A stretch of DNA of 64,000 nucleotides from NCBI RefSeq assembly GCF_017875325.1, contig NZ_JAGGMN010000001.1, forward strand, positions 248,001 through 312,000, read 5' to 3'. Positions within the stretch are counted from its first letter, which is position 1. Each line of letters opens with the position of its first letter. The notes under the pieces are model-generated. The model saw only the letters and a list, made by a program, of their open reading frames with translations, had not been told where the DNA came from and did not search any database. Source of the stretch: Methanofollis sp. W23 (GTDB lineage: Archaea; Halobacteriota; Methanomicrobia; Methanomicrobiales; Methanofollaceae). A program made the translations under genes and the position numbers. Below, piece by piece: positions 15,590 through 45,428 of the stretch.

Positions 15590-17500
15590 TTATGCCTGCC
15601 GCCCCTCTTCCCTATCCTGGACCTTCTGCAGGGTGAAGCGCACCGCCGCCCCCTTCTCAGGGGCACCCTTCACCCGGTCGTCGGCCCAGACCGTTCCGCC
15701 GTAGCGCTCCACCAGCGACCTGACGATATAGAGCCCGAGCCCCTTTCCACTCTGCATGTGCTCTCCCTTCTTGAACCTGTTGAAGACCGACTCCTTCATG
15801 GGGTCAGGGATGCCAGGGCCGGTGTCCTCCACCGAGACCAGCACCTCGTCTTCCCTGTCCTCGACCCTGATGCAGACCGTGCCGTCCTCTTCCATGAACT
15901 TGAGGGCGTTCCCGATGAGGTTGGAGAAGACCTCAGGGAGGAGGGCGTCGGCCCGGACCAGCACCTTCTTGCGCCTCTCATATCTCACCTGCTCCTCATG
16001 GTGATGGCCCACCTCTTCCCTGATCACGCTGTCCAGGTCCACGGTCCTGAGCGGGATATCCTCCTGGTGGATCCTCCGGATCGTCGCGACATTCTGGATG
16101 ATCCCTGAACTCCTGAGAATGCTCTGCCTGATCCGCTCCACGTCTTCTCTCTCTGTCTGGGGAAGTTTCAGGAGCAGGAGCTGGGTATATCCCATTGATA
16201 CGGCGTTGGCATTGTTGATGTCGTGGGACATGATGTCCAGGTAGAGGTTCGCCTCTTCGTTTGCCACTTTGAGTTCGGCCGTCCTCTGGTCGACGATCGT
16301 TTCCAGGTTCTCGGAATAGTGTCTCAGTGCCTCCTCAGATTCATGGGTGCGTCTGATATTCTCTTTAAGCACCAGGACCATCGCGTTGATCGCGTTCTCC
16401 AGTCTGGAAAATTCGATCCCCTTGGTCTGCCGGATCGTGTGGTCGAGGTCGCCGTGTGCGATCTGGTCGATGTCCTCGACCACCTCAGAGATCGGGCCGG
16501 AGATGTAACGACTCCCGCCATAGGCAAGGACGATGCTGAGGAGGACGGCAAGGAGGGAGATCGTCAGTTGCGAGATGAAGAGGGTGTTGAGTTTCTGCTG
16601 GAGAGGGGCGGTCGTATAGGTGAGTTCGATCACCACGCTCATGTCAGAGGCATAGTCGGGGTCCTGGAGATCGAGGAAGAGGTAATGGACCTCGGTCAGG
16701 TGGGCGGAGTCCTGGTATGTCGCCCCGGCCCGCTCTGCAAGCGCACGTTCCACCCGCGCCTGCTGGAGCGGGGGCATCACATAACTCTTGTTCCCGACGA
16801 CATTGCCCATGGTGTCAAAGAACCTGACCGTCGTCAGGTCGGGGTTGAGTTCCTTGAGGTTCTCGCCGGTTTCGACATAGGAGAGGTCAAGACTGCGGTC
16901 TTTGAGCATGTCGGTGACCAACCCAAGTTCGAAGAGGTAGCGGTGGTCGGGGGTGGGCATGTAGGCAAATTTCCGCACTTTCCTGGTGGACTGTTCACGT
17001 ACCACCCGGTCGGCCGAGAAGGTGCCTGCCTCGCGAAGATCGGTGATGTACTCGTAGAAGTATGGGACCTCCTTGAAGTCCAGGCCGACCTCTTTTTCAT
17101 AGGTGGAGTATTCGATGACCCCGTCGGCATTGACAATGTAGAGGTCCATCTCTCCGCCGAGATCTTCTTTCAGTTTCCAGAGGTTCATTTGTGAGGGGTC
17201 GCGGCCAGAACGCTCGTACTCTTCCAGGAAACCCTTGAAGCCGTTCCGCATCTTTTCGTTGAGGCTGTCGTCGTATTTTTTCAGGCCGGCGTCGACGAGA
17301 GTCATCCACTGGAGAATACTCTTCTCAGTCTCTTCCTGGAGAAGGAGGTTCTTCTCGACGAGTTCGTCTCTTGCCTCGATATAGGAGACAGAGGAGAGGA
17401 TCGCGATGACGGTGACGATGAAGAGGATGAAGAACGCCATCAGGTACTGGTTGAATGGACGTTCTTTGCGACACTTCAAGGAAGGGAACTCTCTCCTCAT
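15590..17500 (-). CDS. Membrane-bound sensor histidine kinase (Cache-HAMP-HisK)
   Basis: The 636-residue sensor kinase has an N-terminal transmembrane helix (about 20-42), a large extracytoplasmic sensor region (about 45-320, Cache-like) and a second helix (about 323-345). HAMP (about 345-400), a coiled-coil-like stretch, the phospho-acceptor region with His426 (DIMSHDINN) and an HATPase domain (NLIGNALKF, DTGPGIP, GKGLGLYIV) follow. The start is uncertain: ATG at 17500 or an in-frame GTG at 17539. A TTTAAAAAGT box at about 17,583-17,593 upstream fits as TATA. No response regulator lies nearby, so it is an orphan kinase in this window. Confidence 0.85.
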   Translation of the reverse strand: MRREFPSLKCRKERPFNQYLMAFFILFIVTVIAILSSVSYIEARDELVEKNLLLQEETEKSILQWMTLVDAGLKKYDDSLNEKMRNGFKGFLEEYERSGRDPSQMNLWKLKEDLGGEMDLYIVNADGVIEYSTYEKEVGLDFKEVPYFYEYITDLREAGTFSADRVVREQSTRKVRKFAYMPTPDHRYLFELGLVTDMLKDRSLDLSYVETGENLKELNPDLTTVRFFDTMGNVVGNKSYVMPPLQQARVERALAERAGATYQDSAHLTEVHYLFLDLQDPDYASDMSVVIELTYTTAPLQQKLNTLFISQLTISLLAVLLSIVLAYGGSRYISGPISEVVEDIDQIAHGDLDHTIRQTKGIEFSRLENAINAMVLVLKENIRRTHESEEALRHYSENLETIVDQRTAELKVANEEANLYLDIMSHDINNANAVSMGYTQLLLLKLPQTEREDVERIRQSILRSSGIIQNVATIRRIHQEDIPLRTVDLDSVIREEVGHHHEEQVRYERRKKVLVRADALLPEVFSNLIGNALKFMEEDGTVCIRVEDREDEVLVSVEDTGPGIPDPMKESVFNRFKKGEHMQSGKGLGLYIVRSLVERYGGTVWADDRVKGAPEKGAAVRFTLQKVQDREEGRQA

Positions 17501-17582
17501 CTGGACATCAGGCTCTCCTGCAGGTCGTCTGGTCGGCACCCCTGCACTTCTAGAAGAGGGTACTCAATCTGATGATAAATCA

Positions 17583-17593
17583 CTTTTTAAATG
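17583..17593 (-). promoter_or_regulatory. TATA box of the histidine kinase gene
   Basis: On the minus strand the sequence is ATTTAAAAAGTG. It lies about 45 bp before the GTG and 84 bp before the ATG candidate starts. Confidence 0.45.
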
Positions 17594-17635
17594 GAATAGG
17601 GATCTATAGTCCCTCTATTTTTTGAAAAAAGGGGT

Positions 17636-18778
17636 CTATGGCTTGTTCGCCATCTTGCTGGAACTCTGAGAAAATGTGCCTGATCTCGGGCGCATCGCCA
17701 GGTCGAGGTTTTCTGCCGAGAAGCACGGGGCCTTGCAGATGAGCTGCGTCCCGCAGGTCGCGACCAGTTCCCTGAAGCGGCGCGCGCGTTCCCCGGTCCA
17801 GATCTCCATGAACCGTTCAGAGGCGACATTCCCGAAGGAGACGTGCGGCATCGAGGAGCAGGGGAGCACTTCCCCGTACGGTGAGACATATGCCGTCGCA
17901 AACCCGGCCCCGCAGTTTGCACCCTCGTCAAATCTGAGTTTATGATCGTTGGCCTCTCTGGGCGTGAGCGGGAAGTCGTCGGAGGAGAGCTGGACTTCGA
18001 TGCCAAAAAGCGCCCCAAGATCCTGGAGGCGCTGTGCACTCTCCAGGTCGGCGGTATAGCCGAGGAGATCGGCGTTCTCAGGGTCGGCGGCACGGCCCAC
18101 CTCTTTGATCGCCGACGCCTTCACTTCATGCACGCCGGCGGAGGCCAGGTCGGCGAAAAGGTCTTCGAGATGGTCCTCGCTCCGGCCAGAGAGGGTAAGC
18201 CTGACCACCGTATGGTTCCCGGTCTTGATCAGGTTGTTCACGGCGCGTAATGCCTTCTGGTACGTTCCTTTCCCCCTGACATTGTCGTTGATCTCCTCCG
18301 CTCCCTCAAAACTGACCCGCACGTCGAGGACGCCGAGTCGTGCCAGTCTGGCCGCCACCTTCTCTGAGACGAGCAGCCCGTTGGTCGAGATCATCACGTT
18401 CATGCCGCAATTGCGGATCTGAGCGATGAGCGGGAAGATCTCCTGGTACACAAAAGGCTCTCCCCCGGTCACTGCGACGTCAAGGATTCCCGCCCGTGCA
18501 CATTCTGAAAGAAGCGTACAGGCCTGGTTGAGAGTGAGTTCTCCAGAGGCGTCTGCTGTCGGCGACGACCTTGTAATGCAATGCCGGCATGAGAGGTTGC
18601 ACCGGTACGTCGGGTCATAATACAGGCGGAGCGGGGCGAGCGGGTGACTTTCCGGCGGCACCCAGACCTCGTCCCTCTCCATGTCGTGGGGCGGGTAGGT
18701 GTGGATGGCCCCGGACGTCCGGTCATAGTAGATCTCAGATTTCCCCACCGTTCTTTTGATCCATCGTTTCTGAACCAT
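17636..18778 (-). CDS. Radical SAM/SPASM domain protein
   Basis: This 380-residue enzyme has a central radical SAM domain with CNLSCRHC (CX3CX2C), the GGEP SAM-binding motif (AVTGGEPFVY) and a C-terminal SPASM-like region. Cysteines there lie in GANCGAG, LPCSS and CGTQLICKAPC and would bind one or two extra Fe-S clusters. SPASM enzymes modify ribosomal peptides or proteins, or make heme/cofactor precursors (AhbC/NirJ-like). No precursor peptide gene was found beside it. The start is set by a GAGGAG sequence before the ATG. It lies downstream of, and co-directional with, the cohesin-dockerin surface operon, 111 nt after it. Confidence 0.82.
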   Translation of the reverse strand: MVQKRWIKRTVGKSEIYYDRTSGAIHTYPPHDMERDEVWVPPESHPLAPLRLYYDPTYRCNLSCRHCITRSSPTADASGELTLNQACTLLSECARAGILDVAVTGGEPFVYQEIFPLIAQIRNCGMNVMISTNGLLVSEKVAARLARLGVLDVRVSFEGAEEINDNVRGKGTYQKALRAVNNLIKTGNHTVVRLTLSGRSEDHLEDLFADLASAGVHEVKASAIKEVGRAADPENADLLGYTADLESAQRLQDLGALFGIEVQLSSDDFPLTPREANDHKLRFDEGANCGAGFATAYVSPYGEVLPCSSMPHVSFGNVASERFMEIWTGERARRFRELVATCGTQLICKAPCFSAENLDLAMRPRSGTFSQSSSKMANKP

Positions 18779-18889: not shown

Positions 18890-20809
18890 TTAGACCATCA
18901 TGGCAAGTGTCGCCACATCGTCGTAGTCGAGTTCGCCATTGTTGTTGAAGTCGAAGATTGCAACCAGGTTGTTCTCCTCGATCCACTGCATGTCGGTAAA
19001 GAACACGACGACATCGTCATAGTCGATGATACCATTCCCATTGACGTCTTCGTACTTCCCGTCCCCATTCGGGTCGGTGGATGCGTTTTCATACCCTGGG
19101 AACGGCGGCGGCGGGGTGATGGTGATGCTGGCCGGTGTGGTCGGCGGGTCAAGTACCGCGCCGCCGTCCGCGTCCATCACCCGCACCTCGACCTGGAGTT
19201 CGGCAGTCCCTGCTCTCACCCCTTCGAGGGTCACAGTCCCGAGTACCACTTCAGTGGCGTTTGCACGGACGGCGTCATCGAGATCGACGGCTTCCATCCA
19301 TGCGGTGGAGTTCGGGAACAACGAAGTCTCGTTGAATCCTGCCCAGTCAGGGAAGGTGATCGCGGTGATGTTTGCGGCGGCCGGGTCGCTGACGCTCAGG
19401 TTCAGTGAGTATCCGGCAAGCCCTTCCTCTGCCGAGGCGAGGACGATGTCAAGATCGGTTGTGTTTCCGACCCGGACAGAGGTAGTGGACGGCCTGAACG
19501 AGATTCCGACAGGCATTACCTCGCTGACGTTGATGTAGCCCTCTTTGACCATGGTGTCGGTCTCGTTCATCTCGTCAGAGACGGTGAGACTGACCGTGTA
19601 GATGCCGCCCTCATCGTAGGTATGGACCGGGCTCTGCTCGGTCGAGTTGGTGCCGTCGCCAAAGTCCCATGCCCACGCGGTCACGTTCCCGGTCGAGAGG
19701 TCGGTGAAGGTGACATTGAGCGGCGCCTCGCCCTCAGTGGTGTCGGCCTCGAACTCGGCCGCAGGTCCGACCGGCGGCGGTGCGACGCCTGAGACATTGA
19801 TGTAGTCTTCCTTGACCATGGTGTCGGTCTCGTTTGTCTCGTCCGAGATCGTGAGACTGACCGTGTAGACCCCGTCATCCCCGTAGGTGTGGACCGGGTT
19901 CTGCTCGGTTGAGTTGGTGCCGTCGCCAAAGTCCCATGCCCATGTGGTCACGTTCCCGGTTGAAAGGTCGGTGAAGGTGACATTGAGCGGCGCCTCGCCC
20001 TCAGTGGTGTCGGCCTCGAACTCGGCCGCAGGCCCGACCGGCGGCGCCGGGCCGCCGCTGACCATGATGTAGTCTTCCCTGACCATGGTGTCGGTCTCGT
20101 TTGTCTCGTCAGAGACAGTGAGACTGACGGTGTAGATGCCGCCCTCCTCATAGGTATGGACCGGGTCCTGCTCGGTCGAGTTGGTGCCGTCGCCAAAGTC
20201 CCATGCCCACGTCGTCACGTTCCCGGTTGAAAGGTCGGTGAAGGTGACATTGAGCGGGACGACGCCGGCGGTCATGTCGGCCTCGAACTCGGCCGCAAGT
20301 CCGGCAGGCGTCGGGGATTTACCGGTCACATTCAGTTCGCCAGGGACGACTGTCGCATTGTAGAGTGTGCCATTGACGCCTTCGATCGTTTCAGGCGTAA
20401 CGGTGATCGCACTCATCCCTTCGGCGTCTCCGCGCACGGTGGCGGTGCAGAGCGTGATGTTCGATTCACCTGCAAGCCCCTCGGGGTCGAGTGCCTGGGC
20501 CCAGACAGAGTCTGCAGGCAATGAACCGTTCTCTGGAGAGAACGCCCAGTCCGAAAAGTTCAGGTCGACGATCTCGCCGATCGCTGGGTCTTCAATGGTG
20601 ATGGTGAGGTTAAAACCGGCCAGTCCCTGCGGGGCCGTCTCCAGGATCACTGCAATATCTGTCGTCTCGTTGAGCATCACCTCGGCCGACTCGGGCATGA
20701 GCATGATCGAGACGTTCTCATTCCCCTGGTCCTGCGCCAGGGCTCCCTGTGTCCCGAAGGCACAGAGGATCATGATGCCGAGAAGCGGCATAATACGCTT
20801 CACGTTCAT
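18890..20809 (-). CDS. Surface protein: cohesin - three PKD - cohesin - dockerin
   Basis: The 639-residue exported protein has a signal peptide (about 1-25), a cohesin-like beta domain (about 30-165) and three nearly identical PKD domains (about 170-430, each with WDFGDGTNSTEQ). A second cohesin-like domain (about 433-570) and a C-terminal dockerin type I module (about 583-639) follow. The two Ca-binding loops of the dockerin read DPNGDGKYEDVNGNG and DFNNNGELDYDD. Having both cohesin and dockerin modules suits a linker in a multi-protein surface assembly. The coding sequence is rich in potential N-glycosylation sites. It is the last gene of a three-gene operon, 7 nt after the membrane-anchored cohesin gene. 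Domain boundaries are estimated by eye. Confidence 0.82.
   Translation of the reverse strand: MNVKRIMPLLGIMILCAFGTQGALAQDQGNENVSIMLMPESAEVMLNETTDIAVILETAPQGLAGFNLTITIEDPAIGEIVDLNFSDWAFSPENGSLPADSVWAQALDPEGLAGESNITLCTATVRGDAEGMSAITVTPETIEGVNGTLYNATVVPGELNVTGKSPTPAGLAAEFEADMTAGVVPLNVTFTDLSTGNVTTWAWDFGDGTNSTEQDPVHTYEEGGIYTVSLTVSDETNETDTMVREDYIMVSGGPAPPVGPAAEFEADTTEGEAPLNVTFTDLSTGNVTTWAWDFGDGTNSTEQNPVHTYGDDGVYTVSLTISDETNETDTMVKEDYINVSGVAPPPVGPAAEFEADTTEGEAPLNVTFTDLSTGNVTAWAWDFGDGTNSTEQSPVHTYDEGGIYTVSLTVSDEMNETDTMVKEGYINVSEVMPVGISFRPSTTSVRVGNTTDLDIVLASAEEGLAGYSLNLSVSDPAAANITAITFPDWAGFNETSLFPNSTAWMEAVDLDDAVRANATEVVLGTVTLEGVRAGTAELQVEVRVMDADGGAVLDPPTTPASITITPPPPFPGYENASTDPNGDGKYEDVNGNGIIDYDDVVVFFTDMQWIEENNLVAIFDFNNNGELDYDDVATLAMMV
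19540..20330. repeat. Three tandem PKD-encoding DNA repeats (about 267-bp period)
   Basis: The PKD units of the surface protein are near-identical at DNA level. For example, the run encoding TWAWDFGDGTNSTEQ recurs around 19,650, 19,920 and 20,190. They reflect recent internal duplication and are an unequal-recombination risk. Confidence 0.75.
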
Positions 20810-20816
20810 CTTTTCT

Positions 20817-21545
20817 TCACTCCTTCTTCTCCCTCAATATGGATCCGAAAATCAGGGCCGCAATGGTAAGGACGGCCAGGAAAGGCGCACTTCCCTGTGC
20901 CGGGGCTGTCTCTTCAGGGGCCGCGGGCACGGGAGACGACACTGCAGGCGTTGTTTCGGCCGGGGTGCTCTCTTCAGGTAGCGTCGGCGCCGGCGAGGTC
21001 GCCACCGCGCCAGGACCGCTGCTGCTACTGCCGCTTGCACTCCCCGAGTGCCCGGAGTTTCCTGCCTGCGTTCCCGGCGTAGACCCGACCACAAGGCCGG
21101 TTTTCACCTCGGAGATCTCGTAACTGGTCCCGGTATCGTCCTGGACTCTGACTGCGGCAATCACCAGGTCGGTCGGTCCCCTCTTGACCCCCTTGAGCGT
21201 GATCCTGCCAAGGTCGACATTGGTGCGGTTCCCCTCTGCCGTGCCCCCCACGTCGACCGCCTCGATCCAGGTCTCTCCAGCAGGGACCTCCCCACCGCGG
21301 TGGAGTGAGGCCCATGCAGGGTACGAGACCGCCGAGATCTCGGCGCACTCGGGGTTGGAGAGCGTGACCGTGAGGTTGTAGCCTGAAAGTCCGTTCTCGA
21401 CCCCTTCCAGGGTGATGGGAACCTCGGCACTCCCTCCTACCGGTATCTCTCCAATTTCTCCTACTTTGAGTACGGGAGCGGCCTGGCAGGCCGCAACAAG
21501 GCTGGCAAGCGCGATCAGCCAGATGACATATCCTGGACCCTTCAT
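20817..21545 (-). CDS. Membrane-anchored cohesin-domain protein
   Basis: The 242-residue protein has a signal peptide (about 1-22), one cohesin-like domain (about 25-155, with GLSGYNLTVTLS and AISAVSYPAW-type motifs shared with both neighbours), and a Ser/Thr/Pro/Ala-rich spacer (about 160-215) likely to be glycosylated. It ends in a C-terminal transmembrane helix followed by REKKE. This is the layout of a cell-surface anchoring scaffold. Its start codon overlaps the stop of the upstream protease gene by 4 nt (21542-21545), indicating translational coupling. It has a cohesin but no dockerin, while both neighbours carry dockerins, so it probably anchors them. Binding itself is inference. Confidence 0.78.
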   Translation of the reverse strand: MKGPGYVIWLIALASLVAACQAAPVLKVGEIGEIPVGGSAEVPITLEGVENGLSGYNLTVTLSNPECAEISAVSYPAWASLHRGGEVPAGETWIEAVDVGGTAEGNRTNVDLGRITLKGVKRGPTDLVIAAVRVQDDTGTSYEISEVKTGLVVGSTPGTQAGNSGHSGSASGSSSSGPGAVATSPAPTLPEESTPAETTPAVSSPVPAAPEETAPAQGSAPFLAVLTIAALIFGSILREKKE

Positions 21546-23980
21546 TGTTGCACCATTCTGTAGAGTGTGTTCACGTCACTGAACCCGACCCGGCCGTCTC
21601 TGTCGAAGTCGAAGGCTTCGATGGGCTGACGGTCCCTGATGAACTGCAGGTTCCCGGCATAGACCTCGACGTCCTCGGTCGTGAGAACGCCGTCCCCGTT
21701 GAGGTCTTCGTAGAGCCCGTCGCCGTCCTGGTCGGTGGGCGGAGGATAGGTACCGCCGTCAGGCCGCGGGAAGGGCCTGACATGGGCGGACATCACCGTG
21801 AGGCGTGCCGGAGTGGTCTCCAGCACATACCTCTCTCCGCCGGGCCCGGTCACCACCGGGTCCGGACCAACCGTGAAGGCGGTGGTCCCGGCCTCCTCGC
21901 CCTGCACTGTCAGGGTGCAGAGGGCGACGCCGCCGGTCTGGGCGCGCGGTGGATTGCCGGTCGCGTTGATCCTGACGCGGTCGTCGGGCAGAGGAGTGTG
22001 TGTCTTGTCCTGTATCCATGCAGGAAACGAGACGCCGGTGACCTCCCCGACCGCCGGGTCTGAGATGGTCAGGGTGATGGCGTACTCCAGGAGCGCAGCG
22101 GGTACCTGGTCCATCGTCAGGTCGATCTCGGTCTCTTCCCCTGCACCGATCTCTGCAGTGGCAGGGACAAAAGAGAGCGAGACGTTGGTCGACGGTGTGG
22201 AGAGGGCGTTGAGCATCGCGGGTGCATCCACCCTCCCATGGCCATAGACCGGGTCCCATCCAGGGTCTCCCAGGTCGACGGCCGATTCATAAAGTGCCTC
22301 GCGCACCTCGGCAGGAGTCCTGTCCCTGTGGATGCCCCATACGGTGGCGACGGCTCCTGCAACTGCAGGGGCCGAGGCGCTTGTCCCATAGAACGCTTTT
22401 CCAAACCCGCCCGCGCCGCTGACACGCGCCATCCCGACGCCGCAGACATCGGGCTTTGAGCGTACCTCGCGTCTGGGCCTGGTCACTGTTGCCGGTCCCT
22501 CAGACGAGAAGAACTCGATCTCGGTCGGGTCGTCGGCCCTGACCGCCCCAGCGGCGACCACCCCTGGCACTGCCGGGTGCCCGAAGACGGAGTCCCCAGG
22601 TGTGGCGGCAGGGTCGTCGAAGAACCCGCCGCCCAGGACGAACATTTCAAGAGTACGCGGTTCGCCTTCATGGAGGGCGACCGATAGATAGACCTCACCC
22701 GGCGCTTCGCCGAAGTACTCGACCATGATCTCCTCCATCGGGACATCGTCGCCGTCCTGGACTCTCGAACTGTTCGCGATCTCGACAAAACGGTTTCCTT
22801 CTCTGGTGACCAGGAAGAGGTCGTAGTCGCTTGACGCATGCCCCCAGGGTTCGTCCCACTGGAGCACGACCTGGAGCAGGGTGGTCTGCATCCCGTCGAT
22901 GGGCGGATCGACCACGGCCCTGATAAGGGTGCTCTCTTCGCTGAAAAGGTGATAGCCGTGGCCATCATCCCTGAAATCCCCTTCATAGTGCCCCAGCGCA
23001 TCATTGCCTGCCGCCGAGACATAGACGAGGTCCTCATTCTCGACGGCCTCGTGGACGTACGAGGCGACATAACCGTCTTCGAAGTATGGTTCGTCGAACC
23101 ACCCGATATCGTCGCAGACCACATCGCACCCGGCCTCGGCCAGTGCCGCGACCGCCGAGACAAAGGTGATCTTGTTGGGCAGACCGCTGTGGAAATAGAG
23201 GCTTGCTCCTGGTGCGGTGTCATGAACGACCTCGAGCATGGCCGTACCTTCGTCGATACCGTCGATGTCGTACAGGACACGGACCGAGGGCGGGAGGTCG
23301 CCAGAGGCCGCGGCCTCCTGCCACTGGTCGGCACTGTCCGAGATGATCCCGACCTTCATCCCCTCGCCGCCGTATCCGGTCTCGGCACGCACCTCCGCGG
23401 TCCCAAGGACGGCATCGCTCTCACCTGAGATCGGTCCCGTATAGACCACCGGAGGAGTCACGCTCTCGATCCGTCTGACGTCTTCAAGGGACGCAAGATC
23501 CTTGAGCCGGTCGACCCTCACCCATGCCGCCGCGACATGGCGGTCCTCGTCCCGGTCGGTGACCTCCCTGACATAGGGGTCGACGACCTCGGTCGACACC
23601 CCGTCTTTGAGCCAGATATAGAGATAGACCTGGAGCACCCCGTCGTCGGCGCGGGTGGTTGAAGACTGCGGGAGTACAGGGACGAACTCTGTCGTGGGCC
23701 TGGCGGGCGGTGCGGCACGCGTGGTCATGGCTGACCCGTATCCCGCCCGCGCATGCTGCACGAGTTCGGTCGGGAGTTTTTCCTCTGCAGAGGAGAGTCC
23801 GGACTTGAATGTCCCGCTCTCGTTTTTCATTAAGAGATGGAGACTCCTGTCTCCGTCTGGAGCCCTCGCAGTCTCCTCTACAGTCCCTTCCTGAAGGCCT
23901 GTGCCCTGGGCCTGGACCGGGCAGCAGAAGAGTAGCATCGCGACAACGAATGCCCCCACTCGTGCATACCTCACGGTCAC
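21542..23980 (-). CDS. Secreted subtilase with cohesin-like and dockerin modules
   Basis: The 812-residue protease has a signal peptide (about 1-25), a prodomain-like region and an S8-type catalytic domain (about 200-600). A cohesin-like domain (about 605-735) and a dockerin (about 750-812; DQDGDGLYEDLNGDG and DFDRDGRVGFSD) follow. Candidate catalytic residues are Asp215 (GIISDSADQW) and Ser534 (YGTSASAP). Where subtilisins have the His of HGT, the sequence reads DEGTAML, with Glu244. This recalls the Glu of sedolisins and may be a distinct catalytic set. The GTG start follows a GGGGGTGG sequence. It is the first gene of the surface operon. A TATA-like box at 24,149-24,163 implies a leader of about 145 nt. 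Confidence 0.83.
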   Translation of the reverse strand: MTVRYARVGAFVVAMLLFCCPVQAQGTGLQEGTVEETARAPDGDRSLHLLMKNESGTFKSGLSSAEEKLPTELVQHARAGYGSAMTTRAAPPARPTTEFVPVLPQSSTTRADDGVLQVYLYIWLKDGVSTEVVDPYVREVTDRDEDRHVAAAWVRVDRLKDLASLEDVRRIESVTPPVVYTGPISGESDAVLGTAEVRAETGYGGEGMKVGIISDSADQWQEAAASGDLPPSVRVLYDIDGIDEGTAMLEVVHDTAPGASLYFHSGLPNKITFVSAVAALAEAGCDVVCDDIGWFDEPYFEDGYVASYVHEAVENEDLVYVSAAGNDALGHYEGDFRDDGHGYHLFSEESTLIRAVVDPPIDGMQTTLLQVVLQWDEPWGHASSDYDLFLVTREGNRFVEIANSSRVQDGDDVPMEEIMVEYFGEAPGEVYLSVALHEGEPRTLEMFVLGGGFFDDPAATPGDSVFGHPAVPGVVAAGAVRADDPTEIEFFSSEGPATVTRPRREVRSKPDVCGVGMARVSGAGGFGKAFYGTSASAPAVAGAVATVWGIHRDRTPAEVREALYESAVDLGDPGWDPVYGHGRVDAPAMLNALSTPSTNVSLSFVPATAEIGAGEETEIDLTMDQVPAALLEYAITLTISDPAVGEVTGVSFPAWIQDKTHTPLPDDRVRINATGNPPRAQTGGVALCTLTVQGEEAGTTAFTVGPDPVVTGPGGERYVLETTPARLTVMSAHVRPFPRPDGGTYPPPTDQDGDGLYEDLNGDGVLTTEDVEVYAGNLQFIRDRQPIEAFDFDRDGRVGFSDVNTLYRMVQQ

Positions 23981-24324
23981 AGGCCACCCCCTTCCTTCAT
24001 GGCCTCTCCGTGGACTGGAAGGTGACCTACTGCTGGTCTGCTGATGGGGATCCCTCTCTGTGACCTCAGTATGGACTACGTGATCCCCGTGTCGACTGAA
24101 TAGGCGTTGTGCTCTGGCCTACCATCCAGTGAGGACTATACCAGAGGAAATACTATTTATAGTTTATCTCGCTCCAGGTGTGAAGACGGGCTTGTATTTC
24201 ACAGGAAATTTCGAGACAGCGACGTACAGAGAGATTTCTCTTTTGTCATGACCCTGATAAACGACCCGTCTTTCTGAAAAAAAGTATGAAGGTGGGCTGA
24301 TCCCTTCGCAAGGAAGAGACGCCC
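23981..24324. other. Intergenic region and probable long leader of the subtilase operon
   Basis: No gene is seen. On the minus strand the AT-rich TATA-like element ATAAACTATAAATAG lies at about 24,149-24,163, some 170 bp before the protease start. Transcription would therefore begin near 24,125 and leave a long 5' leader. No riboswitch fold was recognised. Confidence 0.45.
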
Positions 24325-36516: not shown

Positions 36517-39500
36517 ATGGTTTATAATTATCTGTCTCTATTCTACCATTTCCAGGAGGGAACCTCTACGAATGACCAACACTTTTTCAGACGATTTTCA
36601 GAGACAATCAACCGTACCGCACTCGCCCCTTTCTTCGGCATACTCCTGCTCGCCCTCGCCCTCGCCTCCCCACCGGTGGCGGCGACCGATTGGACGGTCG
36701 GAAGCGACGGCTGCAATTTCACCACCATCGGTGCGGCGCTCTCAAACACCTCGGTGACGGCGGGCGACGTCATCCTCATACATCCGGGCACCTATGACGA
36801 GACCGTGAACGTGGGCAAACGCCTCACCCTCAGGGGCGAGGCGGGCGCGACGGTGAACGGCGGGATCACGATCATCGCCGACGGTGCAACGGTCGAGAAC
36901 CTCGCCGTGAACGGGGCCACGGACTCCATGGCCATCTATGTCAACAGGGCCGACGACGCCGTGGTGCGGGGGTGCACGATTTCCAGCGCGAGATCCGGGA
37001 TCTATATCGAATCAGCGACGAACTGCACCGTGGAGAGATGCGTCCTGGACGACACCATCACCGACACTGGCATCTACCTCTACTCATCCTCAGACCAGTG
37101 CCGGATCCTGGACAACACGGTGACCGGGTGTGGAAGTCTTGGGATCGCACTCCTGAACAAGTGCCGCGACTGCGTCATCTCCGGGAACACCGTCCAGGAC
37201 TGTGGTTATGCAGGCATTCAAATCCAGGGCGGTTGCGAAGGCTCTGTGGTCGTCGCCAACACCTTCTCCGAAAACATCTATGGTGTCGTGGTCATGGATT
37301 GCACCGGCCAGACCACCATCCTGAAAGACAATACCGTCCTTGGAAACAGAGATAGGGCAGTCTATCTAACCGGTACGGATTCTGTCATCGTTGAGAATGT
37401 CACGGTGAGGGGCGGGGAATATGGTGTCTGCCTCTCCTCTGTCGGGAATATCACGCTCGCCAACAGCACCATCACCGGAACTGGTACCGGACTGTATGTC
37501 GAGAGTACCACAACAGACTCTCTCATCGCAAACAACCTCTTCAACAACACGAAAAATATCGGGGTCCGGGCCAGGATCACCATGACCGGCACCCGCTGGA
37601 ACACGACGAAGGCCGCCGGTGAAAACATCCGCGGCGGTTCTTTCCTCGGCGGCAACCTCTGGCTGACCCCCGAGGGCACCGGTTTCTCCCAGACCCATGC
37701 CGACTTCGACCTCGACGGGATCTGCGAGGAGGGGTATGCGATCACGGATAAAGATGGAATGGTCGTCGGCACTGACTCCCTCCCGCTCCAGAACGGGGGG
37801 CCGTCGGCGAACTTCACCATCATTCCGTCGAGCGTGATGATCGGCGTACCGGTCTTCTTCAACGACACCTCGGTGGGCACGCCGACCTCGTGGTCATGGG
37901 CTTTCGGCGATGAGACAGAGACCACCCGGAACGTCACCCGTATCTACGATACCGCGGGCACCTACCAGGCGACCCTCACCGTCGCCAACGAGTTCGGCAC
38001 GAACACCACGGCCCGCACCGTCACCATCGAGCCCTTCAGCATCCAGGGCGCGGTGGACGCCGCCTCCAAAGGCGACGTCGTCGTCGTCCCGTCCGGCACC
38101 TATGACGAGACCGTGAACGTGAACAAAACCCTCACCCTCAGGGGGAGCGAGGGCGCGACGGTGAACGGCAGCATTTCCCTCACCGCCGGCGCCGCCGGTG
38201 CGACGATCGAGCACCTCACCGTGAACGGCGCCGCAGACACCACGCCTATCGTGGTCAGTGCCGACGACGCTGTGGTGCGGGGGTGCACGGTCTCCGGCGG
38301 GCCGGAAGGGATTTTTCTCTTTTATGCGACGAACTGCACCGTGGAGGGGTGTACCGTTTCTGGAGGGACGACCGGGATTAATCTCTACTCGTCGGGCCAG
38401 TGCCGGATCCTGGATAACCGGGTGGCCGGAAGTGGGGATAGCGGGATCCATCTCTATAACATCTGTCCTGAGTGCGTGATCTCTGGCAATATCGTCCATG
38501 ACTGTGGTAATACCGGCATTTCCCTCTGGGCGGGGAGTCAGGGAAGCGAAGTCGTCGCCAACACCTGCTCTGACAATGAGTTTGGTTTCGTGGTCTCAGG
38601 GTGCACGGGTGCAACGACCACCTTGAAGGACAACACCGCCCTCGGAAACAGTGGTCCCGGGATCGTGGTGTCAAATTCCGGTTCTGTCGTCATTGAGAAT
38701 GTCACGGTGCACGAGAACCAGTGCGGCTTCAGGCTGTCCAATAGCGAGACGGTCACGCTCACCAACAGCACCCTCACCGGGACTACAGGGTCCGGACTTG
38801 AGGTTAACTCCGCCTCTTCCTCCCTGATCGCCAACAATCTCTTCAACAACACAAAGAACATCAATATCTGGTCAGACACCGGTCTGACCGGCACCCGCTG
38901 GAACACCACAAAGACCTTCCGGAAAAATATCCGCGGCGGCCCCTTCCTTGGCGGCAACCTCTGGCTGACGCCTGAGGGCACCGGGTTCTCGGAGACCCAC
39001 AAAGATCTCAACGGTGACGGGATCTGCGACGAGGGCTACGACCTCGGGAACGGGTGCACCGACTCCCTCCCGCTCCACACCTGCCTTCCGACCGCAGACT
39101 TCACCTTTGCACCGACCGGCGGCAGCACCCCGCTCGAAGTGCAGTTCACCGAAATCTGCTCGGGGGTCAACCCCCGCCTCTATCACTGGGACTTCGGGGA
39201 CAACACTCCCGCGGTCGAGTTTGTCCATCCCTCCCACACCTTCACGACCAACGGTAGCCACCAGGTGAGCCTGACGGTCACGAACGCCTTCGGGAGCGAC
39301 ACGGTGACAAAGACGGTGACCACCCTTGATCCGCCGACGGCGAACTTCACCGTGACGCCAGCGGGGGGGAAGGCTCCCCTCACGGTGGTGTGTACCGATG
39401 CATCGACGGGCTGCGTTTCCACCCGCCTCTGGGACTTCGGCGACGGCACCACCTCGACCGAGGCCACCCCCACGCATGTCTACGCGAAGGCTGGCACCTA

Positions 39501-40197
39501 CACCGTCTCCCTGAATGTCAGCAACCCGTACGCCTCGAACACGACGGTGCGGGAGAACTGCATCACGGTGGAGGGGACAGGCGTGAGCAGCGGCGGGGGC
39601 GGCGGGCGATCCCCTGCGTCGGCCGGTGCGGCGAGTCATATCCCCGCCAGCGGCCACGCTTCCTTTGAAGTCCGCGACGCGGCGATCGCCGAGGTGGAAG
39701 TGACGGCCGCCGAACTGGTCTCGCACATCCTGGTCACCGTCGAGCCGATCGCAAAGCCGAACCACATCAAGGCCCCGGCAGATGCGGTCTATGAATACGA
39801 CGAGGTGACGCTCTACCACACCACTGACGAGGCGATCGCCAGCGCCGACCTCGCCTTCACCGTTCCAAAGACATGGCTCAAGGCGCAGGGCGCCAGGCCG
39901 GATGACGTGGTGCTGTACCGCTACCACGACGGGGCGTGGCACGCACTCCTGACAGAGAGGACAGGCGAGGACAAATTCTGCTACTCTTTCACTGCCAGGA
40001 GTTCGGGCTTCTCGCTCTTCGCGATCGGGGTTGATGAGTCCGGGCCTGCGCCGACCGTGACCCCGACCGAGACCGTGACCGCGGTCCCGGCCACGACCGC
40101 CCCCCCGACGACCGCCCCGCACCAGACCCCCATGCCTTCTGGAATAGTGTTCTTCGCTACAGGTGCTGCTTTTATTCTGGCACAGCGGCTAAGGTAA
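36517..40197 (+). CDS. Giant surface protein: beta-helix / PKD / PGF-pre-PGF
   Basis: The up to 1226-residue exported protein has a signal peptide at about 32-56 (FFGILLLALALAS). A first right-handed beta-helix (about 60-400, NosD-like repeats) is followed by a PKD domain, a second homologous beta-helix (about 510-845) and two further PKD domains. A PGF-pre-PGF-type domain (about 1035-1175), a Thr/Pro linker and a terminal hydrophobic segment followed by RLR complete it. The layout implies an S-layer-associated or cell-wall-anchored adhesin or carbohydrate-active protein. The start is problematic. The in-frame ATG at 36517 overlaps the probable TATA region, while the ATG with AGGAGG upstream (36572) is in the +1 frame, suggesting a frameshift near 36,580-36,605. 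Confidence 0.8.
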   Translation: MVYNYLSLFYHFQEGTSTNDQHFFRRFSETINRTALAPFFGILLLALALASPPVAATDWTVGSDGCNFTTIGAALSNTSVTAGDVILIHPGTYDETVNVGKRLTLRGEAGATVNGGITIIADGATVENLAVNGATDSMAIYVNRADDAVVRGCTISSARSGIYIESATNCTVERCVLDDTITDTGIYLYSSSDQCRILDNTVTGCGSLGIALLNKCRDCVISGNTVQDCGYAGIQIQGGCEGSVVVANTFSENIYGVVVMDCTGQTTILKDNTVLGNRDRAVYLTGTDSVIVENVTVRGGEYGVCLSSVGNITLANSTITGTGTGLYVESTTTDSLIANNLFNNTKNIGVRARITMTGTRWNTTKAAGENIRGGSFLGGNLWLTPEGTGFSQTHADFDLDGICEEGYAITDKDGMVVGTDSLPLQNGGPSANFTIIPSSVMIGVPVFFNDTSVGTPTSWSWAFGDETETTRNVTRIYDTAGTYQATLTVANEFGTNTTARTVTIEPFSIQGAVDAASKGDVVVVPSGTYDETVNVNKTLTLRGSEGATVNGSISLTAGAAGATIEHLTVNGAADTTPIVVSADDAVVRGCTVSGGPEGIFLFYATNCTVEGCTVSGGTTGINLYSSGQCRILDNRVAGSGDSGIHLYNICPECVISGNIVHDCGNTGISLWAGSQGSEVVANTCSDNEFGFVVSGCTGATTTLKDNTALGNSGPGIVVSNSGSVVIENVTVHENQCGFRLSNSETVTLTNSTLTGTTGSGLEVNSASSSLIANNLFNNTKNINIWSDTGLTGTRWNTTKTFRKNIRGGPFLGGNLWLTPEGTGFSETHKDLNGDGICDEGYDLGNGCTDSLPLHTCLPTADFTFAPTGGSTPLEVQFTEICSGVNPRLYHWDFGDNTPAVEFVHPSHTFTTNGSHQVSLTVTNAFGSDTVTKTVTTLDPPTANFTVTPAGGKAPLTVVCTDASTGCVSTRLWDFGDGTTSTEATPTHVYAKAGTYTVSLNVSNPYASNTTVRENCITVEGTGVSSGGGGGRSPASAGAASHIPASGHASFEVRDAAIAEVEVTAAELVSHILVTVEPIAKPNHIKAPADAVYEYDEVTLYHTTDEAIASADLAFTVPKTWLKAQGARPDDVVLYRYHDGAWHALLTERTGEDKFCYSFTARSSGFSLFAIGVDESGPAPTVTPTETVTAVPATTAPPTTAPHQTPMPSGIVFFATGAAFILAQRLR

Positions 40198-41237: not shown

Positions 41238-41252
41238 ATGGTGGTGGCGATT

Positions 41253-44200
41253 ATGATTCGGTTGCCAAAAGGCATATTGATCTCTCTAATCTACTGTGTG
41301 GTTCTATTTTCCCTATTTTCAGGGGTAAATGCCATAGATATCGAGATGGCGCCCCTGAACCCGGAATTTGTGGAATATATGGAGATGAGGCAGGCAGAGG
41401 ATCCTGTCCCTATGGACGTATCCATCGCAAGAGGCACTGTTCCTCTATGGTATGAAGATACGCCTATCTTTGCGACAGGGGCCGTACCGGCCCCCGCAAT
41501 GTTGGTCTGGCCGGAAGGATACAGGGCACCTGCCGGTGCTCCTCCTACTCAAAACTCTTTTGATCTCCGGAATGAAGGACGAGTAACTCCGGTGAAGGAT
41601 CAGGGTAATTGTGGGTCGTGCTGGGCCTTTGCTTCCCTCGGTTCCCTTGAATCGGCCCTGCTTACTGATGGATTTGGAGAGTGGGATCTTTCAGAGAACA
41701 ACATGAAAAACACCCACGGTTTTGACTTGGGGCCATGCGAAGGCGGCAATTTCCTCATGGCGACGGCTTACCTCGCCAGGTGGTCGGGGCCGGTGAACGA
41801 GAACGACGACCGGTACAACGCGACTTCGGGTGACTCGCCTCCTGGCCTCTCGTCGGTGATGCATACCCAGAACGTCACTTTCCTTCCTCTACGGAGTGGC
41901 TCGATGGACAACGATCTGATTAAGGAGTACATCCATGATGATGGAGGATTGTATGCCTGTTTAATCATAAATGCATCCTGTTTTAGGCCGGATGCTACAA
42001 CCTACTATCTCCCGGATGACCCCTATTATACAAATGGCACCGCACAGAACGGCCATGCCATTCTTCTGGTAGGGTGGAATGACACCTACGATAAATCCAA
42101 TTTCGTTGTCACGCCCCCGGATGACGGTGCTTTCATCGCGAAGAACAGTTGGGGTACTGGTATTGGTGAAAATGGGTATTTCTATATTTCATACTATGAT
42201 TCTTCCCTCAAAGATTTTGCACACTTCTCTGCCGAATCTGTGGATAAATATGATGGGATATACCAGCATGACCCGCTCGGGTGTTGCCGTGCCATTGGAG
42301 CCCCGGGTCGTAAAACAATTTATGCAGCGAACGTCTTTACGGCAACAGAAAAAGAGGATCTTGCGGCGATAGGGTTCTATACCCTGGAGCCGCAGGTGGC
42401 TTACACCTACGAGGTATTTGCCGGTCTTGATGCTCCTCCAGTCAACACGTCGGGCCCGGTTGCAACCGGCGGAGGCACCCTTGCACTCCCGGGTTACCAT
42501 ACCATCCCCCTCGCCACTCAGGTTCCGCTTGCATCAGGTCAGACCTTCTCGGTCGTGCTCAATATCACTTCTCCGCTTGAAGACGCCATTCTTGCCGTGG
42601 AGGGGCCTATCGGTTATCCATACTCTGATAATGCCGTTGCAGGAGCGGGAGAGAGTTATGTGAGCCTGGATGGTACGTCCTGGGGGGACCTGACCGGAAG
42701 TTTTGTGAATACAAATCTCTGTATCAGGGCATATTCTGCACTGAATCTTCCCCCTCTGGAGGCCAACTTCACCGCCGTCCCGACTTCCGGCACCGCTCCG
42801 CTGACGGTGCAGTTCACGGACGCCTCGACCGGCGCCATCACCTCCCGGCAGTGGACCTTCGGTGACGGGAACACCTCGGACGACTGGAGTCCGTCGTACA
42901 CCTACCAGCACGCCGGAGTCTACACGGTGAACCTGACGGTGACAGGTTCTGGCGGCGATGACACGGCATCCGCCGTCATCACGGTGGAAGAACCGGCTCC
43001 TGAACTGAAGGCCAACTTCACCGCCTTTCCAACCTCCGGCACCGCCCCGCTGACCGTCTCGTTCACCGATACCTCAAGCGGTTCACCTACATCATGGCTG
43101 TGGGACTTCGACGATGGGAACACCTCCACCGTTCAGAATCCGTCCCATATCTATGTAGAACCGGGAACGTACTTCGTGAACCTGACCGTCTCAAATGGAA
43201 CAACACAATCGTGGTTTAAACTGGAGGAGTACATCGATGTCGATGCTGCACCGCTTGATGCCAACTTCACCGCGTCCCCGACCACCGGCACCGCTCCGCT
43301 GGCGGTGCAGTTCACGGACACCTCGACCGGTATCTATGACACCTGTGTCTGGACGTTCGGTGACGGGAACTCCTCGGGCGAACAGAACCCGGTCTATATC
43401 TATACGGTACCCGGACTCTACACTGTAAATCTGACCATCTCTTCCGGGATGCAGACCGACACCGAGACGAAGGAGCAATACATCAACATCACCGCAGCAC
43501 CACCTGTGCTCTCCGCCAACTTCATGGCCGTTCCACAGAACGGTACCGCCCCGCTGACCGTTCAGTTCACCGATACCTCGACCGGTGCACCGACGTCCTG
43601 GCTGTGGGACTTTAAAGATGGGAACTTCTCGACAGAGCAGCACCCGACCCACACCTACATTTCTTCCGGGCTGTATAATGTCAACCTCACCGTCTCTGAC
43701 GGAAAGACATCTTCGTCGTATGAGACGATGGAGTACATTGAAGTTTACGAACCACAATTAGAAGCCAGCTTCACCGCCTCTCCAACCACCGGCACCGCCC
43801 CGCTGACGGTGCAGTTCACGGACGCCTCGACCGGCACACCGACGTCCTGGCAGTGGACGTTCGGTGACGGGAACACCTCGGACGACCGGAGTCCGTCGTA
43901 CACCTACCAGCACGCCGGCACTTACACGGTGAACCTGACGGTGACAGGTTCCGGCGGCGATGACACGACATCCACTGTCATCACGGTGAACGAACCCGTA
44001 CCTGATCTAAAGGCCAGCTTCACCGCTTCTCCAACCTCCGGCCTTGCCCCGCTGACGGTGCAGTTCACGGACGCCTCGACCGGCGCCATCACCTCCCGGC
44101 AGTGGACCTTCGGTGACGGGAACACCTCGGACGACTGGAGTCCGTCGTACACCTACCAGCACGCCGGAGTCTACACGGTGAACCTGACGGTTACAGGTTC

Positions 44201-45428
44201 CGGCGGCGATGACAAGGCATCCACTGTCATCACGGTGGAAGAACCCGTACCTGATCTAAAGGCCAACTTCACCGCCTCTCCAACCTCCGGCACCGCCCCG
44301 CTGACGGTGCAGTTCACGGACGCCTCGACCGGCACACCGACGTCCTGGCGGTGGACGTTCGGTGACGGGAACACCTCGGACGACCGGAGTCCGTCGTACA
44401 CCTACCAACACGCCGGTACCTACACTGTCTCGCTGATGGTTTCTGACGGGGGCACGGACGACACGATCACCCGTACAGACCTCATCACGGTGGAAGAACC
44501 CGTACCTGATCTAAAGGCCAACTTCACCGCCTCTCCAACCTCCGGCACCGCCCCGCTGACGGTGCAGTTCACGGACGCCTCGACCGGCACACCGACGTCC
44601 TGGCGGTGGACGTTCGGTGACGGGAACACCTCGGACGACCGGAGTCCGTCGTACACCTACCAACACGCCGGAGTCTACACGGTGAACCTGACGGTTTCTA
44701 ACAGGGGCATGGACGACAGGATCACCCGTACAGATCTCATCACGGTGAATGAACCCAAAACGACCCCCACCCGATCATCTGGTTCTTCCTCTGATGGTGG
44801 TCGTTCTTTGCTCTCGGCAGGGGTATTTGAACGGCTCAAAAAAGGTGAATCAGGTTATGTCTCGTTAAGTGGAAGTGTAATCACCAGAATCGGGATCACC
44901 GCCAACTCGAGCCTCTCGGATGTTCTCGTCACCGTCGGCAGGGGTTCCCCCCCCAGCAGTGCCGGAGCCCCAGGAGATACCATCTACGCGTACCTGGAAA
45001 TCCTTCTCTACCATGCTACAAACTCTGACCTGAATGGTGCGGAGATCATCTTCTCGGTCCCCCTCGCATGGCTGGAAGAACACGGTGCCGGGGTAGAAGA
45101 TGTTGTCCTCTACAGATATCACAACAATACATGGGTACCTCTCCCTACCGAGTACATCGAAGAAAAAGATGGAAAGGCATATTTCCGTGCTGAAACAGAG
45201 GGTTTTTCCCTCTTTGCGGTTGTGATTGAAGCACCGGGAACTACAGTGGTGATGACCCCGGTAGCCCCTGTCCCCACAGACACAACCCTTCCAGACTCTG
45301 AAGATCCGGGGTCTACCCCGACGCAATCGGAGGAGCCTGAATCCACCCCGACGCAGACCCCCCTGCCCGCAGCCCTGTCCCTCCTCGCCGCGGGTACCGC
45401 TCTCCTCCTCAGGGGAAGGCGGGGATAG
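41253..45428 (+). CDS. Giant surface papain-like protease with eight PKD domains
   Basis: The 1391-residue exported protein has a signal peptide (about 1-27), a C1A papain-like peptidase domain (about 95-320), a lectin-like beta domain (about 340-490), eight PKD domains (about 500-1168), a PGF-pre-PGF-type domain (about 1190-1330), a Thr/Pro linker and a C-terminal hydrophobic helix ending RGRRG. The catalytic set is complete: Cys123 (GNCGSCWAFA), His268 (NGHAILLVGW) and Asn298 (AKNSWGTG). The protein is probably anchored at the cell surface and degrades extracellular protein. Its 3' end overlaps the convergent GNAT gene by 20 nt. Confidence 0.87.
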   Translation: MIRLPKGILISLIYCVVLFSLFSGVNAIDIEMAPLNPEFVEYMEMRQAEDPVPMDVSIARGTVPLWYEDTPIFATGAVPAPAMLVWPEGYRAPAGAPPTQNSFDLRNEGRVTPVKDQGNCGSCWAFASLGSLESALLTDGFGEWDLSENNMKNTHGFDLGPCEGGNFLMATAYLARWSGPVNENDDRYNATSGDSPPGLSSVMHTQNVTFLPLRSGSMDNDLIKEYIHDDGGLYACLIINASCFRPDATTYYLPDDPYYTNGTAQNGHAILLVGWNDTYDKSNFVVTPPDDGAFIAKNSWGTGIGENGYFYISYYDSSLKDFAHFSAESVDKYDGIYQHDPLGCCRAIGAPGRKTIYAANVFTATEKEDLAAIGFYTLEPQVAYTYEVFAGLDAPPVNTSGPVATGGGTLALPGYHTIPLATQVPLASGQTFSVVLNITSPLEDAILAVEGPIGYPYSDNAVAGAGESYVSLDGTSWGDLTGSFVNTNLCIRAYSALNLPPLEANFTAVPTSGTAPLTVQFTDASTGAITSRQWTFGDGNTSDDWSPSYTYQHAGVYTVNLTVTGSGGDDTASAVITVEEPAPELKANFTAFPTSGTAPLTVSFTDTSSGSPTSWLWDFDDGNTSTVQNPSHIYVEPGTYFVNLTVSNGTTQSWFKLEEYIDVDAAPLDANFTASPTTGTAPLAVQFTDTSTGIYDTCVWTFGDGNSSGEQNPVYIYTVPGLYTVNLTISSGMQTDTETKEQYINITAAPPVLSANFMAVPQNGTAPLTVQFTDTSTGAPTSWLWDFKDGNFSTEQHPTHTYISSGLYNVNLTVSDGKTSSSYETMEYIEVYEPQLEASFTASPTTGTAPLTVQFTDASTGTPTSWQWTFGDGNTSDDRSPSYTYQHAGTYTVNLTVTGSGGDDTTSTVITVNEPVPDLKASFTASPTSGLAPLTVQFTDASTGAITSRQWTFGDGNTSDDWSPSYTYQHAGVYTVNLTVTGSGGDDKASTVITVEEPVPDLKANFTASPTSGTAPLTVQFTDASTGTPTSWRWTFGDGNTSDDRSPSYTYQHAGTYTVSLMVSDGGTDDTITRTDLITVEEPVPDLKANFTASPTSGTAPLTVQFTDASTGTPTSWRWTFGDGNTSDDRSPSYTYQHAGVYTVNLTVSNRGMDDRITRTDLITVNEPKTTPTRSSGSSSDGGRSLLSAGVFERLKKGESGYVSLSGSVITRIGITANSSLSDVLVTVGRGSPPSSAGAPGDTIYAYLEILLYHATNSDLNGAEIIFSVPLAWLEEHGAGVEDVVLYRYHNNTWVPLPTEYIEEKDGKAYFRAETEGFSLFAVVIEAPGTTVVMTPVAPVPTDTTLPDSEDPGSTPTQSEEPESTPTQTPLPAALSLLAAGTALLLRGRRG
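42757..44755. repeat. Eight tandem PKD-encoding repeats, the last three near-identical
   Basis: PKD units of about 249-255 bp repeat through this span. Units beginning near 43,992, 44,241 and 44,496 share the GAACCCGTACCTGATCTAAA junction. An approximately 185-bp stretch of the last two is identical by eye, so at least the last duplication is recent. Confidence 0.8.

Follow-up and report, generated by a model that had tools for sequence, protein, structure and literature searches.

Archaeal cohesin-dockerin gene pairs as a probable cell-surface docking system for secreted enzymes, with a protease-bearing operon in Methanofollis

Cohesins and dockerins of archaea have been catalogued for more than two decades, and their function is little understood. 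Assemblies of such modules are known from Clostridium thermocellum and other bacteria as cellulosomes, in which dockerin-bearing enzymes are combined with an anchoring protein and a cohesin scaffold. S8 and cysteine peptidases with dockerins are known in bacterial cellulosomes, as are X-dockerin dyads, one of which carries a cysteine peptidase (PMC12484212). In ANME archaea, dockerins are found in proteins with S-layer domains and as many as five cohesins (Chadwick et al., 2022; PMC9012536); no two-gene cassette of dyad and anchor, and no protease or phosphatase cargo, is described there. The Doc75-Coh76 pair of Archaeoglobus fulgidus was used by Ko et al. (2021; PMC9705933), who give its binding as strong and specific, citing Voronov-Goldman 2011.

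The closest described layout is that of A. fulgidus. AF2375 encodes a cargo followed by a cohesin (Coh75) and a dockerin (Doc75), and AF2376, back to back with it, a signal peptide, a cohesin (Coh76) and a PGF-CTERM end (Cohesin and PGF-CTERM by Pfam); the arrangement recurs in several other Archaeoglobaceae. The cohesin of the A. fulgidus dyad differs from PDB entry 2xdh, the archaeal cohesin of A. fulgidus, at one aligned position. The first two genes of the operon described here are likewise adjacent, a cargo with cohesin and dockerin next to an exported, anchored cohesin. The A. fulgidus cargo is beta-propeller-like, unlike that of the operon, and there is no protease or PKD scaffold. A search of A. 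fulgidus with the operon's dockerin profile gave no match, and the pair was found instead with the Pfam model PF00963. Aligned with hhalign, the cohesins of the two systems matched at E 3.7e-4 (probability 36%) and the dockerins at E 7e-6 (probability 84%). Since the sequence families are distant, A. fulgidus was taken as a precedent by layout and fold, not as proof for the modules of the operon. The preliminary description of this locus knew of no described proteolytic complex of its design. That claim was narrowed by the two-gene layout of AF2375/AF2376 with its published binding, by the scaffoldin-like ANME proteins and by the bacterial dockerin-bearing S8 and cysteine peptidases; as far as could be found in the literature searched, which lay mostly outside subscription journals, the proteolytic archaeal version is still undescribed. 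The same search returned neither the dyad-anchor cassette, nor its haloarchaeal phosphatase form, nor the Methanofollis case.

The window analysed was a stretch of 64,000 nt of Methanofollis sp. W23 (contig NZ_JAGGMN010000001.1, positions 248,001 to 312,000), and positions below are those of the window unless given in kb. Three co-directional open reading frames (g1, g2 and g3) lie on its minus strand, exactly as first described, with a 4-nt overlap (ATGA) between g1 and g2 and a 7-nt gap between g2 and g3. g1 (21542..23980, 812 aa, GTG start) encodes a predicted secreted peptidase with a signal peptide, a prodomain-like region, a peptidase domain (residues ~190-590, 22211..23413), a cohesin-like module, COH (residues 599-731, 21788..22186), and a dockerin-like module, DOC (residues 734-810, 21551..21781; loops DLNGDGVLTTED and DFDRDGRVGFSD). 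The ATG of g1 orthologues (MKEGGG...) is present at 24000, but a G-rich run differs here by 1 nt and shifts it out of frame (23970-24000, minus strand), so the GTG at 23980 was left as the start. A TATA-box-like element of archaeal type, CTATAAATAG (24153..24162, minus strand), lies 173 nt upstream of that start and is a consensus match only. g2 (20817..21545, 242 aa) consists of a signal peptide, a COH (residues 22-155, 21081..21482) that falls in the anchor clade of the COH tree (SH-aLRT 97), a Pro/Ser/Thr linker and a C-terminal hydrophobic helix (residues 216-234, 20844..20900) with the basic tail LREKKE. This C-terminus is conserved in anchors; the PGF motif is absent from g2, and its anchoring is predicted from hydropathy alone. 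g3 (18890..20809, 639 aa) carries a signal peptide, COH1 (residues 32-163, 20321..20716), three PKD domains (residues 172-429, 19523..20296; Pfam PKD_4, 2.4e-59), COH2 (residues 433-566, 19112..19513) and DOC (residues 567-639, 18893..19111; loops DVNGNGIIDYDD and DFNNNGELDYDD). An Rfam scan gave no match near the operon, and bacterial-type promoter and terminator scans of the operon region were uninformative. Elsewhere in the window, on the plus strand, are a 1226-aa NosD/beta-helix surface protein with three PKD domains (36517-40197) and a 1396-aa papain-type peptidase with a lectin-like domain and eight PKD repeats (41238-45428), a paralogue of which, at 1767 kb, has a COH and a transmembrane segment in place of the PKDs.

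The four COH modules of the operon are mutually homologous (27-34% identity), as are the two DOC modules (41%). With Pfam and NCBIfam alone every cohesin of the operon was missed, the Pfam cohesin model PF00963 matching nothing in g1, g2, g3 or the whole genome. Dockerin and EF-hand matches of g1 and g3 in Pfam were sub-threshold only: for Dockerin_1 (PF00404, cut-off 22.9 bits) g1 scored 17.0 bits as a whole protein and 22.1 as a domain, and g3 8.0 bits. Another COH-DOC dyad of this genome, at 1769.7 kb, reached 24.5 bits, and its orthologues up to 34. The g1 dyad was modelled with AF2 from 63 aligned dyads (pLDDT 93.1, pTM 0.73), and the model was compared by Foldseek with 350,542 PDB chains. 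Ranks 1-32 were all cohesins or cohesin-bearing chains (E 1e-9 to 1.4e-6), 2xdh among them. On the modelled fold, a nine-stranded jelly roll, and not on Pfam, COH is assigned as a divergent cohesin. Against PDB sequences the COH profile had a sole match, a ScaC cohesin (E 0.13), and single COH modules of another locus (L065) had no cohesin match. DOC modelled on its own (77 residues, pLDDT 97.6) gave dockerins for all of its first 16 Foldseek matches (E 0.12-4.4, modest values expected for 77 residues; probability up to 0.95, against 0.02 for calmodulin), and its predicted fold is that of a dockerin rather than of a generic EF-hand pair. The DOC profile retrieved dockerins from PDB sequences (2y3n_B, 2e-5; 1ohz_B, 1e-3) alongside EF-hand proteins. 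DOC has a pair of F-hand Ca2+ loops whose Asp/Asn ligands stand at positions 1, 3, 5 and 12, the first and last Asp being invariant in both loops of 30 DOC sequences. Where the loops were listed one by one they were located by the ligand pattern, and the counts from that listing are partly by construction. The loops are asymmetric in the g1 DOC (TE versus FS) and symmetric in that of g3. Loop symmetry among the dockerins was 59%, versus 36% in shuffles that ignore relatedness (0/2000), and is weak support for dual binding. Structure prediction, which the preliminary description had proposed, and the layout of the reading frames thus bore out its complementary cohesin and dockerin modules.

A search of the GTDB genome collection gave 354 stretches with the COH-DOC dyad. 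In the best loci read from other genomes, 49 of 83 dyad genes had, within 200 nt downstream, a COH gene lacking DOC, usually of ~240 aa with a C-terminal helix, and in Methanofollis 28 of 31 dockerin matches lay no more than 7 kb from a COH-only gene; the association of COH and DOC is therefore not chance. The two-gene cassette, cargo-COH-DOC with signal peptide-COH-anchor, occurs in haloarchaea, ANME-2, Archaeoglobaceae and Thermoproteaceae. Haloarchaeal cargoes are PhoX, PhoD, GDPD, nuclease-like and 5'-nucleotidase proteins, many cargoes having Tat-like starts and the anchors PGF-CTERM-like ends; elsewhere the cargo is S-layer repeats (Methanoperedenaceae), a beta-propeller (Archaeoglobaceae) or the peptidase family of g1 (ANME-2). 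Beside an ANME-2 homologue of the g1 protease with COH-DOC lies a COH protein with no transmembrane segment and, at its C-terminus, a canonical type I dockerin (L063:10618-11550, 37.0 bits), likely an adaptor between two docking classes. The cassette is widespread and would be an archaeal way, apparently undescribed, of fixing secreted enzymes to the surface.

An anchor is not universal. Where none had been seen, a local one was sought at looser thresholds and found only at L062, upstream of the dyad, and at L070; most anchor-less dyads are truly without a nearby anchor or lie at a contig edge. Dyads without any non-dyad COH of the operon's family were present in 6 of 18 genomes, which had been selected mainly for the lack of an anchor close by. 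A COH immediately precedes nearly every DOC module, at a spacing of 0-10 residues, the few exceptions being proteins of 434 aa (L047), 611 aa (G005) and 626 aa (G011). Module numbers varied in other methanogens. Two genomes of Methanoregulaceae (G082 and G085; L071, L074 and L138) have 37 dockerin matches to 5 COH and 23 to 4, a surplus that is cellulosome-like, and Methanogenium cariaci (L070) has 26 COH matches, some partial, to 8 DOC, possibly in large scaffoldins. Tandem COH-DOC-COH-DOC proteins were also seen in the bacterial Bipolaricaulota/Fraserbacteria (L133, L134, L136), which points to a family of wider range or to transfer out of the archaea.

The source genome (G000, 2.9 Mb) holds seven COH and three DOC of the operon's type in all. 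Outside the operon these include a pair at 1767-1770 kb, formed by a 1710-aa PKD protein ending in COH-DOC and a 1107-aa neighbour with a papain-type peptidase, a lectin-like domain, a COH and a C-terminal transmembrane segment, and a lone 957-aa COH/PKD protein (L042). The search for further dockerin proteins also returned a pair of a second class at 225.6-227.4 kb (L171:2136-3886), ~40 kb from the operon. Its first member is a secreted protein of 312 aa that ends in a dockerin (PF00404, 25.8 bits); 2 nt on lies a 269-aa secreted cohesin with a PGF-type C-terminus, which aligned with the Archaeoglobus cohesins at an hhalign E of 3.9e-8.

The GTDB family sample consists of the single genus Methanofollis, with 12 species. 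The operon lies in an island downstream of thrS (threonyl-tRNA synthetase), the side on which a HAMP histidine kinase and a Na+/H+ exchanger are also found. Orthologous islands were present in at least 8 of the 12 species (G000-G005, G010, G011), and in G007 the genes are beside the synthetase. Protease, anchor and scaffold occur together in four genomes (G000, G001, G004, G007); anchor and scaffold alone, with no protease, occupy the island in three (G002, G003, G010), and the same gene pair is found in G006 and G008. The island of G011 holds a DOC protein, a protease and a COH-PKD3 protein without a transmembrane segment, and that of G005 has these and a PKD-COH-DOC protein. Because the content of the island varies and sister species have no protease there, the protease is an exchangeable cargo and not the core. 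At the G004 locus (L058) two COH-DOC proteins and an anchor accompany a scaffold in which three COH and two PKD are combined with a dockerin of the second class (24.5 bits). A similar protein of G003 (1127 aa) has an extra cohesin recognised by Pfam. In cellulosome terms, both proteins are scaffoldins or adaptors. A three-COH scaffoldin with two COH-DOC partners, as in G004, is absent from G000, where g3 has two COH and a DOC. In the window, a radical SAM/SPASM protein and the HAMP histidine kinase follow the operon (15590-18778, minus strand); the kinase is kept beside the island across Methanofollis and could regulate it.

Taken together, the operon is probably a cell-surface docking complex, with the two-gene cassette as the unit of evolution. 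Support for the docking pair comes from operonic pairing across archaeal classes, the cohesin and dockerin folds and the A. fulgidus precedent; that the operon's modules bind each other, do so with Ca2+ and sit at the surface is what we infer. g2 would form the base, an exported protein that is fixed in the membrane through its C-terminal helix and displays one cohesin outside. The g1 protease and the g3 PKD scaffold would be secreted without an anchor, each ending in a cohesin-dockerin dyad, and a Ca2+-loaded dockerin with its two complete F-hand loops would plug into the cohesin of g2, or into one of g3 or g1. Cargo would thereby be kept at the cell surface in an assembly extendable outward, the likely benefit being that hydrolysis products, here peptides, stay near the cell. 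Methanofollis would have added a scaffold to the evolving unit, [cargo-COH-DOC]+[COH-anchor], and would exchange its cargo within one syntenic island. Features in common with bacterial cellulosomes are the folds of cohesin and dockerin, the Ca2+ loops, a predicted anchoring protein, a scaffold that carries cohesins, and peptidases among the dockerin-bearing enzymes. Unlike these, the operon system has one cohesin per anchor, COH-DOC dyads and 3 DOC to 7 COH in the genome; Pfam scans of the operon and of the proteins scanned at other COH loci gave no plant-polysaccharide hydrolases or carbohydrate-binding modules. The earlier view of a three-gene complex built around a protease and anchored at the surface is changed accordingly in two respects: the PKD scaffold is an addition of Methanofollis to a conserved two-gene unit, and the place of the protease is empty in sister species and taken by PhoX/PhoD, GDPD, nucleases or S-layer proteins in other archaea. 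The anchor-type g2 and the COH-DOC of g1 agree with its third element, with binding and surface location at the strength given above.

The dyad COH may be a receptor that allows chain growth or a buttress. In the former case it would itself receive dockerins, so that cargo polymerises head to tail, DOC to COH, with the g2 anchor as first link. We hold this tentatively. That nearly every DOC is directly preceded by a COH is consistent with it, as are the six genomes in which the family has no COH outside the dyads, so that the dockerin is left without another family partner. Dyad and non-dyad COHs can also be nearest relatives, a relationship to be expected of modules that receive one and the same dockerin (the L065 dyad and its anchor, SH-aLRT 95; the L057 dyad and scaffold COHs, 90). 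The single dockerin of A. fulgidus was reportedly bound by both its cohesins, and the cohesin is said to have oligomerised. Haloarchaeal dyad and anchor COHs, however, form separate clades (SH-aLRT 94 and 93) with class-specific residues, such as Arg versus Glu on strand 6, which argues that their functions have diverged. Extended to all archaea, with any secreted dyad-fused protein polymerising head to tail from a membrane cohesin, the proposal becomes rather unlikely; if true, it would be a general route to cell-surface enzyme filaments, independent of cellulose degradation.

Alternatively, the dyad COH could be a structural buttress like the X modules, with DOC binding only anchor and scaffold COHs, a possibility that we likewise rate below an even chance. 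The fixed COH-DOC order with its short spacing, the separation of the haloarchaeal clades and the known X-dockerin dyads, including the one with a cysteine peptidase, all favour it, and the pTM of the dyad model suggests a partly defined mutual arrangement. Genomes without another COH of the family are left unexplained, unless other cohesin classes serve, and the few DOCs without a COH also speak against a buttress.

The docking complex could also be real and its protease a pseudo-enzyme, or a factor of processing or adhesion, and not a nutritional protease. g1 had been called a subtilase, and Pfam does give Peptidase_S8 (2.2e-14), with the fold, the Ser of GTSxAP, the Asp and the oxyanion Asn of that family. 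In an alignment of 15 homologues from two lineages, Asp215 (23336-23338) is kept in 14 of 15 rows, and oxyanion Asn326 (23003-23005) and Ser534 (22379-22381, in GTSA-S/A-AP) are conserved; Glu244 (23249-23251; all on the minus strand) stands at the position of the catalytic His in all 15. Judged by its residues, g1 lacks the Asp-His-Ser triad and is not a classical subtilisin. S53 sedolisins have a Ser-Glu-Asp triad, with a spacing of Glu and Asp that g1 does not share. The loss of His throughout would fit a pseudo-enzyme, and for the peptidases of bacterial cellulosomes a role in maturation or turnover has been proposed (PMC12484212). Against this, the other catalytic residues are kept to the extent just given, and a Glu that is conserved from genus to genus speaks for a functional Ser-Glu-Asp triad, by analogy with sedolisins likelier than decay; a proteolytic g1 with a D/E/S triad is presumed on this basis, and a pseudo-enzyme or processing factor appears improbable. 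Paralogues of the g1 peptidase in Methanofollis carry PKD repeats, and some also a type I dockerin.

That COH and DOC merely stabilise large surface proteins or make them adhesive, with no mutual binding, is very unlikely: COH does score below the Pfam cohesin model, and Ig-like and EF-hand-like domains are often spacers, but the structural matches were to cohesins only and dockerins only, the pairing in operons spans archaeal classes and A. fulgidus provides a precedent.

With a cassette that recurs, is found in haloarchaea and exchanges what it carries (protease, PhoX/PhoD phosphatase, GDPD, nuclease, S-layer), it becomes testable whether an enzyme is kept on the cell by its anchor. If so, archaea would have a general cohesin-dockerin system of enzyme display, of which cellulosomes would be one special use.
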